From Verrucomicrobiota bacterium (lineage in GTDB: Bacteria > Verrucomicrobiota > Verrucomicrobiia > Limisphaerales > SIBE01), in NCBI GenBank assembly GCA_016871535.1, contig VHCZ01000021.1, forward strand, positions 1 through 43,949: a stretch of 43,949 bases of DNA. The letters are read 5' to 3'. The notes beneath the pieces were generated by a model. It had not been told where the DNA came from. It was given only the letters and a program-made list of their open reading frames with translations, and did no database searches. The translations under genes and the position numbers were made by a program. Of the stretch, positions 8,411 to 36,439 are shown piece after piece; position 1 is the first letter of the stretch, and every line of letters starts with the position of its first letter.

Positions 8411-8539
8411 CGGGACATTCGCCGAAGGCCGGCCTTGGGCGGCGCTGAGGATTTCCTTTTCTGCGCACCTCAAGTCGGGCGTCCAACCGCTCGCCTCGAA
8501 CCGACCCAGCGGGATGGTCAGGCGCGGAGCTCTTTCCTG

Positions 8540-8606
8540 AACGTCCCGCTCATCCGTCCTACGGACACCCTCTCCCCCTCCGATGGGGAGAGGGACAGGG
8601 TACAAT
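8540..8606. repeat. Palindromic repeat family D, degenerate copy
   Basis: Contains the family core CCGTCCTACGGACACCCTCT followed by CCCCCTCCGATGGGGAGAGG. The same core occurs in polA (31382-31455) and, with GTCCGGAGGAC, in the J-domain gene (35887-35962). This copy is outside the likely coding limit of the pseudopilin gene. Confidence 0.7.
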
Positions 8607-8639
8607 GCCATTGAATTAACTCTGTGGAGTTCTCCTGCT

Positions 8640-28758: not shown

Positions 28759-28874
28759 CCATGAACCTGACGGTAGGGCGAGCCTGTCCCCAGCGAGCCG
28801 GGTCGGACGTGTTCCACGCACGTCGAGCGGCTCGCCGGGACGGACTCGCCCTACCAGCGACGGGTTCATGGGCT
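28759..28874. repeat. Palindromic repeat family E, copy 2
   Basis: The core GGTAGGGCGAGCCTGTCCCC...CGGGACGGACTCGCCCTACC lies at about 28771-28856. The outer arms CCATGAACC/GGTTCATGG extend the palindrome. Confidence 0.85.
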
Positions 28875-28905
28875 GCGAGCCTGAGTCTGAAACCAAGGGA
28901 ACTTC

Positions 28906-29012
28906 CCATGAACCTGACGGTAGGGCGAGCCTGTCCCCAGCGAGCCGAGTCGGACGTGTTCCACGCACGTCGAGCGGCTCGCCGGGACGGACTCGCCCTA
29001 CCGGGTTCATGG
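28906..29012. repeat. Palindromic repeat family E, copy 3
   Basis: Nearly identical to copy 2 and in the same orientation, so the two make a direct repeat of palindromes about 147 bp apart. The intervening text (around CCAAGGGAACTTCCCATGAA) is repeated again after copy 3. Confidence 0.85.
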
Positions 29013-30024: not shown

Positions 30025-33000
30025 TTAGTGCGCTTCCAGCCAATTCTTCCCCAGGCCTATTTCGACCGCGATCGGCACCTCCAGCGGAATCGCGGTTCCC
30101 ATGCCTTCCTCGATCAGGGCTCGGACTTGTTGTTCCTCCGGTTTGAACAAGTCGAAGATGAGTTCGTCGTGAACCTGGAGCAGCATGCGTGTCGTCAGTC
30201 CGCGCCGCGTCAATTCCCGATGGATCTGGACCATCGCGATCTTGATCATATCCGCGGCGCTGCCCTGGATCGGGGCATTGATCGCGTTGCGCTCGGCGCC
30301 GCCGCGAACGGTCGCGTTCGACGACCGGACATCCCGCAGGTACCGGCGCCGCCCGGCGACCGTTTGCACGAAACCCTGTTCGCGCGCAAACGCGATCGTG
30401 TCCGACATGTATTTCCGGATGCCGGGAAACTGATGGAAGTATTGCTCGATGATCGCGGCCGCTTCCTGGCGTGCGATGCCCAGGCGCTGCGCCAGGCCGA
30501 AGGCGGAGATGCCGTAGATGATGCCGAAGTTCACCATCTTCGCCTTGCGCCGCATTTCCGCGTTCACCTGGTCGAGCGGCACGCCATAAACTTTCGCCGC
30601 CGTCGCCGTGTGAATGTCGTGGCCGCTGCGGAAGGCTTCGATCATCGCGGTGTCCCGGCTGAGCGCGGCGATGATGCGCAACTCGATCTGCGAATAATCG
30701 GCGGAGAGCAAAAGATGATTCTCGTCGCGCGGCACGAAAGCCTTCCGGATTTCCTGTCCCAGTTCGGTGCGGATCGGAATGTTTTGGAGATTCGGGTTTT
30801 GCGATTGCAGCCGGCCAGTCGCGGTCGCGGCCTGTTGGTAAGTCGTGTGGACGCGGCCCGTTTTCGGAAAGATCGCCGTGGGCAACGTATCCGCGTAGGT
30901 TGATTTCAATTTCGTCATCGCCCGGTATTCGAGGATGCGCGGGACGATTTCGTGTTCGCCCGCCAGCGCCAGCAGCGTCTGTTCGTCGGTGGCGTACTGG
31001 CCGGTCCGCGTCTTTTTGGGTTTCGCGGCGATCTTGAGACCGTCGAAGAGAATTTCCCCAAGCTGCTTGGGAGAATTCAAATTGAATTCGGTTCGCGCCA
31101 GGCGGTAGATCGCTTTCTCGCCCGCGTTGATCTCCTTGGACAACTGGTCGGCGAATTCGCCCAGGACCGCGGCATCCAGGCGGACGCCTTCGCATTCCAT
31201 GGCCACCAGCACGGGCAAGAGCGGCGACTCGATTTCGTAAAACACGCGTTCCTGGCCCTTCTCTCTCAGCAACGGGGCCAGGACCGCGCGCAATTGCCAG
31301 GCGATGTCTGCGCCTTCGGTGGCGTAATCGGTCAATTGATCGAGCGGGACATGGCTCAAGCTGAGTTGCTCGGCTTCTCTCCCCCTGAACGGCCCCCTCT
31401 CCCGTCCTACGGACACCCTCTCCCCCTCCGAGGGGGAGAGGGGGCCGTTCAGGGGTTCAATGGGCGAAGTCGGTCGGAGAATTCCCTCTCCGATCAGTTT
31501 GGTGACGGGCACCGGACTGTAGCCCAGATAAACCTCGGCCAGATAATCCAGCGCGTGCCGCATGTCCGGCTCAATCAAGCTGTGCGCGAGCATCGTGTCG
31601 AACAGCTTCCCGCGCGCGGTCACGCCGCGCCATTGGAGAAGACTCAACTCGAACTTCAGATTGTGGCCGACTTTCTCGATCCGGTCGCTCTCGAACAGCG
31701 CGCGGAATTCTTCGAGGATTGCGCGCGCTTCAATTTCGTCCTGCGGCACGAGGACGAAATAACCGCTGCGCGGCGCGAAAGAAAAAGCGATCCCGATCCA
31801 CTGCGCCTCTTTCGGGTCGAAGCTGGTCGTTTCGGCGCTGAAGCAAAAGGACGGCTGATTGCCGAGCGTTTGAATGAGTTTCGCGCGCTCTTCTCGAGTG
31901 CGGATCAACTGATATTCATGCGGAACGTCGGCGATGGTTTTGAGGTTCGAGGCGCTGGGCGCTGGGCGTTGGGCTTCAGCCTCGTGGACAGGGCCGCTCC
32001 CTTCCCCCTCACCCTGGCCCTCTCCTTCAGGGAGAGGATTTTCCGAAACGCTTCGCACATTGGATCCTTGAACAGACTTGTTAACCACGGATTTCGCGGA
32101 TGGAGAAGCGGTTTTATCCGTGTAATCCCTGGTTGAATCAGGTTCGTGGGGAGGGGAGGATTGATCCTGCGTTGGAGCAAATCGAGTTGCCCTGGCTTTA
32201 CCAGAGCGTGGCGACAGACTCTCCCTCCCTCTCTCTCCACGGGAGAGGGCCGAGGTGAGGGTAAACAGGTCGCCAGTTTCCCCCACATCGACAAGCTTTG
32301 GCGGAATGCCTCCGGCTTTCGTCTGTGATTCACCCGCGAAACCGCGACCGGCTTTGAATTCGTCCCCAAGCAACCGGCGTCCGATGGAATTGAACTCGAA
32401 CTCGACGAAAAGACTCTTGAGCCTGGCTGCGTCCCATTCCCGCCGTTGGAGCGCGTCGAGGTCGATCGCGAGCGGGACGGCGCAATCGATTGTGGCCAGG
32501 CGTTTCGAGAGGAGTGCCTGGTCGCGATTCGCCTCGAGCGATTCCTTCAGCTTGCCTTTCAACTCCGCGGTGTGCGCGAGCAGATTTTCCACGCTGCCGT
32601 ATTCCGAGATCAATTTGCCGGCGGTTTTTTCGCCGATGCCGGGCACGCCCGGAATGTTGTCCGTCGCGTCGCCCCACAGCCCGAGAATGTCGATGACCTG
32701 GCGGGTTTCCTTGATGCCCCATTTGCCGAGAATCTCGGCCACGCCCAGAATTTCGATGCCGTCGCCCTGGCGCGAGGGTTTGTAGAGGAAAGTTTTGGGG
32801 GTCACCAATTGCCCGAAATCTTTGTCCGGCGTGACCATGTAGGATTCGAAGTCCTCCTGTTCCGCGCGGCGCACGAGCGTGCCGATGACGTCGTCCGCTT
32901 CGTAGCCGTCGAGGGCGATCACGGGGATGTTGAACGCTTCGATCATGCGGCGCACGTGGGGAAGCGCCTGGCTCAGGTCTTCCGGCATGGCTTCGCGCTG

Positions 33001-33231
33001 GATCTTGTAGTCCGGAAAATCGCGATGCCGCTGCGTCGGCGCGTCCGTGTCGAACGCGACCGCGATATGCGTGGGCGATTGCTCGGTGAGGATTTCGAGG
33101 AGCGTTTGCGTGAAGCCGAAGAGCGCGGAGCTATTGACGCCTTTGGACGTGAAGATGGGCCGGCGGATGAGCGCGAAGTGGGCGCGGTACGCGAGCGCCA
33201 TCCCATCCAGCAGGAAGAGTTTCTTCGGCAT
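30025..33231 (-). CDS. polA: DNA polymerase I
   Basis: 1068 residues, well above the usual 880-930. Order: 5'-3' exonuclease/FEN domain (about 1-290), a swollen linker (about 295-435), a 3'-5' exonuclease-like domain and the polymerase domain. Polymerase motifs are intact: A SADYSQIELRIIAALS, B RRKAKMVNFGIIYG, C LLQVHDELIFDL. The exonuclease-like domain looks inactive: the usual FDTETDS is FSAETTS (Ser465 for Asp), NLKYD is NLKFE, and AEDAD is TEGAD. The excess length is repeat DNA translated in frame: four tracts in the linker (32262-31952) and one inside the exonuclease-like domain (31455-31382). It functions in repair and Okazaki-fragment processing. Confidence 0.96.
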   Translation of the reverse strand: MPKKLFLLDGMALAYRAHFALIRRPIFTSKGVNSSALFGFTQTLLEILTEQSPTHIAVAFDTDAPTQRHRDFPDYKIQREAMPEDLSQALPHVRRMIEAFNIPVIALDGYEADDVIGTLVRRAEQEDFESYMVTPDKDFGQLVTPKTFLYKPSRQGDGIEILGVAEILGKWGIKETRQVIDILGLWGDATDNIPGVPGIGEKTAGKLISEYGSVENLLAHTAELKGKLKESLEANRDQALLSKRLATIDCAVPLAIDLDALQRREWDAARLKSLFVEFEFNSIGRRLLGDEFKAGRGFAGESQTKAGGIPPKLVDVGETGDLFTLTSALSRGERGRESLSPRSGKARATRFAPTQDQSSPPHEPDSTRDYTDKTASPSAKSVVNKSVQGSNVRSVSENPLPEGEGQGEGEGSGPVHEAEAQRPAPSASNLKTIADVPHEYQLIRTREERAKLIQTLGNQPSFCFSAETTSFDPKEAQWIGIAFSFAPRSGYFVLVPQDEIEARAILEEFRALFESDRIEKVGHNLKFELSLLQWRGVTARGKLFDTMLAHSLIEPDMRHALDYLAEVYLGYSPVPVTKLIGEGILRPTSPIEPLNGPLSPSEGERVSVGRERGPFRGREAEQLSLSHVPLDQLTDYATEGADIAWQLRAVLAPLLREKGQERVFYEIESPLLPVLVAMECEGVRLDAAVLGEFADQLSKEINAGEKAIYRLARTEFNLNSPKQLGEILFDGLKIAAKPKKTRTGQYATDEQTLLALAGEHEIVPRILEYRAMTKLKSTYADTLPTAIFPKTGRVHTTYQQAATATGRLQSQNPNLQNIPIRTELGQEIRKAFVPRDENHLLLSADYSQIELRIIAALSRDTAMIEAFRSGHDIHTATAAKVYGVPLDQVNAEMRRKAKMVNFGIIYGISAFGLAQRLGIARQEAAAIIEQYFHQFPGIRKYMSDTIAFAREQGFVQTVAGRRRYLRDVRSSNATVRGGAERNAINAPIQGSAADMIKIAMVQIHRELTRRGLTTRMLLQVHDELIFDLFKPEEQQVRALIEEGMGTAIPLEVPIAVEIGLGKNWLEAH
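31382..31455. repeat. Palindromic repeat family D inside polA
   Basis: Perfect 21-bp inverted arms at 31382-31402 and 31435-31455 (CCCCTGAACGGCCCCCTCTC...). The inside carries CCGTCCTACGGA and a second hairpin CTCTCCCCCT/AGGGGGAGAG. It encodes about residues 593-617 of polA in frame, between LIGEGILRPTSP and QLSLSHVPLDQL. Confidence 0.9.
31952..31974. repeat. Heptamer array GCGCTGG in polA linker
   Basis: Three tandem 7-bp units (GCGCTGG, GCGCTGG, GCGTTGG) lie in the polA linker, encoding residues near AEAQRPAPSAS. This is the third different 7-bp array in the window. Confidence 0.7.
32004..32046. repeat. CTCTCC/GGAGAG repeat in polA linker
   Basis: CCCCCTCACCCTGGCCCTCT followed by CCTTCAGGGAGAGG. 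It encodes NPLPEGEGQGEGEG on the minus strand. It resembles 4451-4490. Confidence 0.75.
32081..32152. repeat. Inverted CACGGAT-type repeat in polA linker
   Basis: AACCACGGATTTCGCGGATG to CCCTGGTTGAATCAGGTTCG is the reverse complement of the family at 29053-29135, slightly shortened. It encodes HEPDSTRDYTDKTASPSAKS in polA without breaking the frame. Confidence 0.85.
32219..32262. repeat. CTCTCCC/GGGAGAGGG repeat in polA linker
   Basis: CTCTCCCTCCCTCTCTCTCC followed by ACGGGAGAGGGCCGAGGTGA. It encodes LTSALSRGERGRES in polA. Confidence 0.75.
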
Positions 33232-33311: not shown

Positions 33312-33581
33312 TACTGATCAGACCGTGGGATAGAATACACTTTGCCAGGAGGGATTTTGGCCAGCCGCGAGGAGCGCGTGAGGCGGTGTATCCCTGCGAT
33401 CCACAACGAGCGAGCGACGAAGCGGCTGGCCAAAAGACCCCTGGCCCTGCGGGTTGCGCCGCATTTGGGCTCTGGCTTCGTTGCTCCTCAGTCGAAGATC
33501 CACCAGGGATATTCTCCTTCGTCGCGCCTGAGCCCAAATGCAACGCAACAAAGTGTATTCTATCCCACGGTCTGATCAGTA
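33312..33581. mobile_element. 270-bp MITE-like element with perfect 33-bp inverted ends
   Basis: 33312-33344 and 33549-33581 are exact inverted copies (TACTGATCAGACCGTGGGAT...). Two nested palindromes lie inside: TTTTGGCCAGCCGC (33355-33368) with 33422-33435, and GCATTTGGGCTC (33461-33472) with 33530-33541. The outermost TA on both sides fits the TA target duplication of IS630/Tc1-mariner-type elements. No transposase frame is present; the open frames inside read like non-coding text. It occupies most of the gap upstream of the polA start. Confidence 0.85.
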
Positions 33582-34600: not shown

Positions 34601-36439
34601 ATGGACGACATTTTGAAGTGTTACCAAATCATCGGTGTTCAGTCGGGAACTTCTCCCAAGGCGCTCAAGAAGGCTTATCGCGATCTGGTGAAACGCTGGC
34701 ATCCGGATCGTTTTCCGGACGATTCCAACGCGCGAAAGGAAGCGGAGGAAAAGCTCAAAGCCATCAATCTGGCCTTCGAACGCATCCAGGATCACCGCGA
34801 AACTCTCATTGCGCTCGCCGCCCGAAAGTCCGGGGCAGCCGACCGCGCGCCAGGCCCGCGCGCGGCCTCCACACCACCGCGCCCCCCGCCGAGGCCCAGA
34901 CCGCAGGCGGAACCCAAGCCGCCTCCGGCATCGACAAACAAACCGCCGAGAACGCAAGCGGCATCGAGCCCCTCGGCCAAACCAAAATCAGCCTCACGGA
35001 AGGATTCCCACGCGAACTGGTTTGTGGGCCGGTTTCGTCCGGTCTCGATTGCGGCCGGCTGCGCCATTCTTCTCGCTGCCACGGCGGTGATTTTTTTGTC
35101 CGGAGGACGGAACGAAGATTCCTTTGACGCGGTCAGCGATGCCGAGCCGATGGCGCCCTTGTCGCAAATCGAGTTTCGCCGCAGCGCCGCGGCTCAAGCT
35201 CCGGATCGAACAGCGTTGTCTGGAGTGGGTGAAGTTCCGGATTCTTCGCGATTGTTGTTGCGCGAGGAGAGGGCCGACGGAAGCCCGACGCCGCCTGTTG
35301 CCGCGTTGGACTCTCCAAACTCGCAAACGGACCGCCGCAGTTCGTCTGCGCACACCAATCCGTTGCCGATGCGGATTGATGCTGTGGGACCAACGGCTGA
35401 TCGCTCGCGCCCTGAATCTCAGCCGTTCGCTGCCGACCGCAGTGCGGCGGCCGAATCGCTGCCTGCGGACGCCACCGTTTCGCCACTCCTCAGCGGCTCA
35501 CTGAAAGCGAAACTCATCGCGAAGGCCGAGGCCCCACGCCCGCTTCCCCCGAAGTTCGAGGAAACTCCCGAAGGCCGTTTCCGCTCCGCATTACGCTTGG
35601 CGCAGAGCGAAGGCGGAGCGCGGGATTACGCCGAGGCCGCGCGGTTGTATCGGCTCGCTGCGGAAGCGGGTCACGCGGAGGCGCAGAAGAATCTGGGTTT
35701 CCTTTACGTCGAGGGCAAGGGCGTGCCGCAGGATTCCGTCGAAGCCGAGAAATGGTTCAACAAAGCCGCGGCCCAAGGAATCGCCGGCGCCCAATTCGCC
35801 AGTGCGCTTCTGGCCCATGCGCAGGCGAATTCTTCGAAAGCCGCCGCGCCTCGCGAAGCGCTCCTGCGGCCTGCTGCCCTCTCCACGAACGGCCCCCTCT
35901 CCCTGTCCCTCTTCCCCTCGGAGGGGGAGAGGGCGTCCGGAGGACGGGAGAGGGGGCCCTTCAAAGAGACAATGCGCGAAGACCTTCGGAGGGCTATCCC
36001 CCAGGATGGGCCGCGTTCGCCGCTCCTGAAAGGTTTGGGCCGCTCAAATTCCCCGCAGCCGAGTCCGAAGGATTCTCCGCCGTTCCGGAGTTCCGAACCT
36101 GCAGACCCAGCCGCGCAATACGAACTGGGCCTCCGATGCGAAAAGGGCGACGGACTGAAGCCAGACTTTGCCGCCGCGGCGAAGTGGTATCGCCTGGCCG
36201 CTGATGCCGGACACTCCGCCGCGCAAAAGAAACTGGGCGACCTCTATGCATCCGGCCAAGGCGTCGCCCAGGACTTCAACGAAGCCCGGAAGTGGTATGA
36301 CAAAGCGGCCGCGAGCGGACTGGCTGGAGCCGGTCTGCGGAGAGTCTCGTCCGGCGCGGCCCAAACCGACGGACCCATCGAATCTCCGGACTCGGTCAGA
36401 TCGGATCCGCGAGAGAACCCGGACGCGAAGAAGAACTGA
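34601..36439 (+). CDS. J-domain, single-span, Sel1-repeat protein
   Basis: 612 residues. Residues 1-66 form a DnaJ domain with the HPD motif (KRWHPDRFPDD). A Pro-rich segment leads to one membrane span (VSIAAGCAILLAATAVIFLS, about 147-167). The exterior or periplasmic part has a low-complexity stretch and two Sel1 blocks: AARLYRLAAEAGHAEAQKNL with YVEGKGVPQD (about 345-385), and AAKWYRLAADAGHSAAQKKL with YASGQGVAQD (about 525-565). The J-domain should stimulate a DnaK-type chaperone on the cytoplasmic face. A palindromic repeat (35887-35962) is translated as residues about 429-455 between the two Sel1 blocks. The following gene is seven bases downstream. Confidence 0.8.
   Translation: MDDILKCYQIIGVQSGTSPKALKKAYRDLVKRWHPDRFPDDSNARKEAEEKLKAINLAFERIQDHRETLIALAARKSGAADRAPGPRAASTPPRPPPRPRPQAEPKPPPASTNKPPRTQAASSPSAKPKSASRKDSHANWFVGRFRPVSIAAGCAILLAATAVIFLSGGRNEDSFDAVSDAEPMAPLSQIEFRRSAAAQAPDRTALSGVGEVPDSSRLLLREERADGSPTPPVAALDSPNSQTDRRSSSAHTNPLPMRIDAVGPTADRSRPESQPFAADRSAAAESLPADATVSPLLSGSLKAKLIAKAEAPRPLPPKFEETPEGRFRSALRLAQSEGGARDYAEAARLYRLAAEAGHAEAQKNLGFLYVEGKGVPQDSVEAEKWFNKAAAQGIAGAQFASALLAHAQANSSKAAAPREALLRPAALSTNGPLSLSLFPSEGERASGGRERGPFKETMREDLRRAIPQDGPRSPLLKGLGRSNSPQPSPKDSPPFRSSEPADPAAQYELGLRCEKGDGLKPDFAAAAKWYRLAADAGHSAAQKKLGDLYASGQGVAQDFNEARKWYDKAAASGLAGAGLRRVSSGAAQTDGPIESPDSVRSDPRENPDAKKN
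35887..35962. repeat. Palindromic repeat family D inside the J-domain gene
   Basis: GAACGGCCCCCTCTCCC (35887-35903) is inverted at 35946-35962 with one mismatch. It is the same family as 31382-31455 in polA but lies in a plus-strand gene. It encodes NGPLSLSLFPSEGERASGGR and the following residues in frame. Confidence 0.88.

Follow-up and report, generated by a model that had tools for sequence, protein, structure and literature searches.

Palindromes that encode parts of proteins are known above all from the intracellular, small-genome bacteria Rickettsia and Wolbachia; the palindromic repeats termed RPE were reportedly described by Ogata et al. in 2000. RPE are about 105-150 bp long and occur in frame in many unrelated, often conserved genes as well as in intergenic regions, and two reviews name no enzyme that mobilises them (PMC2229807, PMC10969869). 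GTAG/CGTC REPs consist of 20-40 bp units that end in GTAG or CGTC, and those of the GTAG type frequently lie near RAYT genes; intragenic copies are present in Opitutus terrae (Verrucomicrobia), including one in uvrA, and in DNA polymerase I genes elsewhere (PMC3733652). ERIC and Correia MITEs are small, non-autonomous elements with open reading frames that are fused to genes (PMC2229807). The BoxC/PIT/TM-ECO repeats form an intrastrand triplex from the pattern CCCTCNCCC N3-6 GGGNGAGGG N3 GGGNGAGGG, with one mismatch allowed; they are multicopy, often arranged in inverted pairs, and have no associated transposase, and the copies in E. coli are reported to be always intergenic (PMC4666352).

The window analysed here is a whole contig (C21; 43,949 nucleotides) of the 6.67-Mb, 460-contig draft genome of a Verrucomicrobiota bacterium (GCA_016871535.1), and carries a palindromic repeat, family D, inside two protein genes (Table 1). 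The preliminary description had placed one palindrome at 35887-35962 of a plus-strand gene, in frame and in the linker between the Sel1 blocks of a J-domain protein, and this is borne out in each respect. The covariance model matches 35887-35963, the reading frame stays open across the palindrome, and Pfam locates DnaJ at residues 7-65 and Sel1 repeats on either side of the insert (residues ~425-466). In the AlphaFold2 model, which is based on a shallow alignment (mean pLDDT 58), the confident Sel1 blocks span about residues 320-414 and 503-571, and the insert falls within the unstructured stretch from 415 to 499 (pLDDT about 35-46). The core is a G/C palindrome of three stems, with twelve pairs in the inner stem and five in the side hairpin; the arms at 35880-35903 and 35946-35969 are 83% complementary, and the DNA fold of -31.3 kcal/mol is more stable than those of dinucleotide shuffles (z = -3.8). 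The outer arm GGCCCCCTCTCCC is found nine times in the window at up to two mismatches, compared with 2.2 expected, and no shuffle attains nine. The inserted unit of about 117-120 bp is absent from orthologues. Its boundaries are accurate only to +/- 10 bp because the linker is divergent, and the J-domain copy was therefore dropped as a source for the exact ends of the element. A tail of ~40 bp is part of the inserted unit, which means that the earlier coordinates span the core only. Further repeats, among them several CGGTAGGGCGAGCCTGTCCC arms, lie at positions 28772-29003 and 33312-33581 of the window.

Table 1. Features of the window that are related to family D (positions refer to the window).
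Feature	Position	Strand	Basis
Third, more degenerate family D copy, by a gene end or 5' region	8538..8615	-	covariance model
polA, DNA polymerase I, host of the second family D copy	30025..33231	-	ORF, Pfam, orthologues
Whole insertion in polA, exactly 105 bp (35 aa), GGAGAG on both flanks	31381..31485	-	orthologue alignment
Core of the polA copy, with one arm about 12 nt short	31386..31462	-	covariance model
Gene of J-domain protein with Sel1 repeats flanking the insert, 612 aa	34601..36439	+	ORF, Pfam, AlphaFold2
Whole in-frame insertion in the J-domain gene, about 39-40 aa relative to orthologues	roughly 35873..35998	+	protein alignments, +/- 10 bp
Family D core: outer stem GGCCCCCTCTCCC/GGGAGAGGGGGCC, inner stem CCCTCTTCCCC/GGGGGAGAGGG, side hairpin GTCCGGAGGAC	35887..35963	+	covariance model, 93.7 bits
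Tail, reverse complement of the GGAGAATTCTCC-N-CTTCGCNCATTG type, common to other copies	35960..36002	+	12/61 copies

The copy in polA belongs to the same family, as had been claimed, albeit in a shortened form (81.5-bit match in a DNA search). The insertion is missing from the polA genes of both same-genus genomes (G001 and G002) and from more distant orthologues; the nearest named relatives of the gene stem from groundwater MAGs labelled Verrucomicrobia (79% and 70% identical). It comprises the core and a tail (GGAATTCTCC...CTTCGCCCATTGAAC), with the tail of the J-domain copy located on the opposite side; the peptide predicted from the insert contains the stretch GPLSLSLFPSEGER (J-domain protein or PolA). 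Its assignment to a linker has to be abandoned, as the insert is located inside the 3'-5' exonuclease domain, between the second and third catalytic motifs. The three catalytic aspartate positions, which presumably correspond to D355, D424, and D501 of E. coli, are occupied by S, E, and G in this PolA. Because the polA of G001 has no insert at that site and yet already lacks the first and third catalytic aspartates, the sequences suggest that the decay of the exonuclease domain probably came first. A degenerate 3'-5' exonuclease active site is present also in some relatives of the same family. The linker joining the 5'-3' and 3'-5' exonuclease domains contains a second in-frame repeat insertion of a different kind, a BoxC-like inverted pair (window ~32000-32270; residues ~321-415), and at this linker the polA of G001 carries a separate copy of family D (G001:C351:4975-5044). 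Just upstream of polA is a 50-bp inverted repeat whose arms are separated by 170 bp.

A covariance model built from an alignment of 28 copies identifies 61 copies of family D above a threshold of 54 bits in the draft genome, in which repeats may be miscounted, and matches to the family are present in 29 of 58 relatives, including both genomes of the same genus. The tail accompanies 12 of the 61 copies (20%), compared with 1.4% per segment in the control. A clean insertion of 117 bp is found in an FG-GAP/UnbV gene; the motifs at its edges (GGGAAG/GGGAG) and the GGAGAG on both flanks of the polA insertion are compatible with a short duplication, but the surroundings are purine-rich. The inverted arms are long. 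None of the 23 pairs of the structure consensus has a two-sided compensatory change, so that selection on an RNA fold is unsupported and family D is best regarded as a DNA palindrome; searches of Rfam at the repeat yielded only sub-threshold chance matches. One FG-GAP/UnbV region (L147; G000:C44) holds family D at three positions (6440, 7455, and 8472) over about 2 kb, with two of the copies in frame in the same ORF. At four loci (L154, L167, L178, and L179), an in-frame repeat peptide (RASLSPASRxGRxPxxSxGSPGRTRPTxFMGRxxGSETK) directly adjoins family D copies.

Coding contexts were assigned with a 3-periodic composition model trained on the long ORFs of the genome, which was used to call the coding frame flanking each copy; gene calls in this draft genome combine composition and homology. 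In 25 of the 61 copies, the coding frame runs through the element without a stop, a set that was hand-picked with a score threshold below that of the first pass; a stricter automatic rule reduces it to 19. Over half of all copies are situated between genes or at gene ends. The hosts identified by Pfam are functionally unrelated and include PurL, UbiD, a UvrA-type ATPase, an AcrB-type transporter, an FtsX permease, PSD/PSCyt proteins, a ResB-like protein, and a kinase/WD40 protein. The insert is missing from the orthologues of the J-domain, FtsX-like, FG-GAP/UnbV, DUF2339, DUF7133, and PSD proteins and of polA. In the case of purL, UbiD, and uvrA, the alignable relatives also lack the peptide, but the exact gain is less clear because the sites are length-variable loops. 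The two coding insertions noted initially have thus become 25 independent ones. The idea that they prefer linkers holds for the J-domain copy, whereas those in polA and purL lie inside enzyme domains, the latter in the AIRS domain of PurL; inserts are found also in DUF2339, DUF7133, and an FG-GAP/UnbV protein. Tolerance, and not linkers as such, is the rule for the position of the inserts.

Selection for frame is supported by the scarcity of the opposite outcome. The strict rule yields only four copies with coding signal in differing frames on the two sides, and among these candidate frame changes, inspection suggests that one lies between two genes (C57) and one at a gene end (C17:17281), and one shares its frame with a kinase on one of its sides (C280); the fourth is C78. 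Even if all four are counted against it, frame is kept in 25 of 29 cases, far above the one-third expected by chance (p = 6e-9). Frame is therefore not random among the coding copies, and disruption is not as frequent as retention. The proteins concerned would carry an extra, probably floppy peptide, if the insert is translated as its sequence implies.

The core of family D appears to be an elaborated BoxC/PIT motif, for which the sequence predicts a triplex. With at most one mismatch per stem and a first loop of 3-13 nt, the triplex pattern is present in 44 of the 61 copies, including the J-domain copy (one mismatch, 9-nt loop); the polA copy fails because its arm is shortened. Exact BoxC/PIT matches (loop 3-10) occur 140 times in the genome, compared with none in the reversed control, and the plain BoxC motif is in frame in 4 of 20 sampled regions. 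Plain motifs of this genome (G000) often form inverted pairs about 65-67 bp apart (e.g., G000:C1:87739-87871), an arrangement reported from E. coli as well.

Family D is dispersed in the genome, its coding copies were gained relative to several orthologues, and their frame is kept. Very probably, this pattern reflects a non-autonomous BoxC/PIT-based repeat that inserts broadly, with frame-breaking copies being lost and frame-keeping copies being tolerated. Such a small palindromic repeat, founded on the intrastrand-triplex motif and with a core of about 77 bp (about 105-120 bp for the whole insertion in the best-defined cases), would have spread to about 60 sites of the genome by a putative trans-acting mechanism. 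Insertion would occur broadly; a copy that introduced a frameshift or a stop into a conserved gene would be lost, and one that kept the frame in a tolerant loop, a linker, or a decayed domain would persist, its translation adding about 25-40 aa of harmless, disordered peptide. The copy in the J-domain protein would extend a linker between two Sel1 blocks that was disordered already; the one in polA would occupy an exonuclease domain that was already losing its catalytic residues. That the in-frame copies are an artefact, i.e., stop-poor, G/C-rich repeats that are open by chance in intergenic DNA, is extremely improbable: the core is indeed open in most of the six frames, but coding signal and conserved protein sequence extend to either side in a single frame, and orthologues that lack the insert can be aligned over its site, which refutes the artefact for polA, purL, the J-domain protein, and about seven further hosts. 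It is also highly improbable that the inserts are adaptive, with peptides or DNA structure co-opted to alter the host proteins or the way in which they are expressed. Conserved enzymes carry them, and polA was struck independently in two species of the genus, but no host gene was found with an insert at the same site across species, the hosts share no function, and the sites are length-variable loops or a decayed domain.

The preliminary description had left the choice between selection and targeting open. Targeting is not needed: the strict rule leaves 19 of 61 copies in frame, a share that matches that of positions drawn at random from these regions (457 of 1293; Fisher p = 0.58) and thus reveals no enrichment. 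An insertion biased to frame-neutral sites, e.g., by a unit length that is a multiple of three or a codon-phased target motif, is distinctly unlikely. It would agree with the net lengths of the well-defined insertions (105 and 117 bp), with the purine-rich GGAGAG/GGGAAG at two insertion edges, with the lack of depletion from genes, and with the strongly biased use of a single frame of the element; it conflicts with the predominance of copies outside genes, with the core lengths of 77, 75, 74, and 65 nt, which rule against an inherent multiple of three, and with the distance from GAAC to GTTC, which takes all residues modulo 3 in coding and non-coding copies alike. Tolerance and purifying selection account for most of the data. 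A model in which all frame-breakers are purged would, however, leave genes depleted of copies, which is not observed, and some bias at insertion may therefore exist. The reading frames of the element are used at a ratio of 21:4:0 in the coding copies; the frame with no use at all is also the one in which stops occur most often, and the skew is stronger than the availability of stop-free frames in the non-coding copies predicts (p = 4e-4). A more speculative and rather unlikely reading is that a triplex-forming repeat of the BoxC type has turned into a selfish element compatible with translation, with selection on the element itself keeping one reading frame, on either strand, that specifies a stop-free, soluble, disordered peptide (NGPLSPSEGERVSxGRERGPF); if so, family D would occupy genes as freely as intergenic DNA. 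As for the mobilising agent, it is unlikely that a RAYT/Y1 tyrosine transposase moves family D as a classical REP or REPIN. Y1_Tnp matches are present in the genome (13) and in 50 of 58 relatives, but the 3-9 kb around these genes contain no convincing copy (best match E = 0.01), one relative (G037) has 15 family D-like matches and no Y1_Tnp match, and the alignment of 28 copies has no conserved GTAG or CGTC end.

The findings extend RPE-like behaviour to a multi-megabase lineage of groundwater Verrucomicrobia and to a repeat class that is widespread in bacteria and, in E. coli, has been reported from intergenic DNA. With about 25 natural cases in which one sequence is inserted in frame, several of them with empty-site orthologues, there is now a data set that can be used to ask where proteins tolerate inserts and whether insertion or selection sets the frame. 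They are also a warning for annotation, as peptides of the family D type are not domains.

Among the known systems, BoxC/PIT/TM-ECO shares with family D its multicopy nature, the frequent inverted pairs, the lack of an associated transposase (for family D, around the Y1 genes examined), and, in the 44 of 61 copies that fit the relaxed pattern, the motif of the core (CCCTCNCCC-loop-GGGNGAGGG-N3-GGGNGAGGG). Family D differs in having an additional outer arm that is complementary, a side hairpin, and in some copies a 40-bp tail; its first loop usually measures 9 nt instead of 3-6, and 25 of its 61 copies are in coding frames, whereas those of E. coli are reported to be always intergenic. Like the MITEs, it is small and non-autonomous and has an ORF fused in frame; its target duplication is at most a candidate one, and no parental transposon was found in the neighbourhoods of the Y1 transposases examined. 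The GTAG/CGTC REPs resemble it in that palindromes of this type, too, are present within coding genes, among them uvrA in the same phylum and, elsewhere, DNA polymerase I, but family D has neither their terminal motifs nor a link to RAYT. In behaviour, family D resembles RPE, as it is in frame in many unrelated protein genes and missing from orthologues; going by the descriptions, it is set apart by the unrelated phylum, its G/C-richness, and its triplex motif. Family D is therefore best classified, by comparison, as a BoxC-derived repeat that is RPE-like in behaviour, and is not filed as a member of either RPE or REP.
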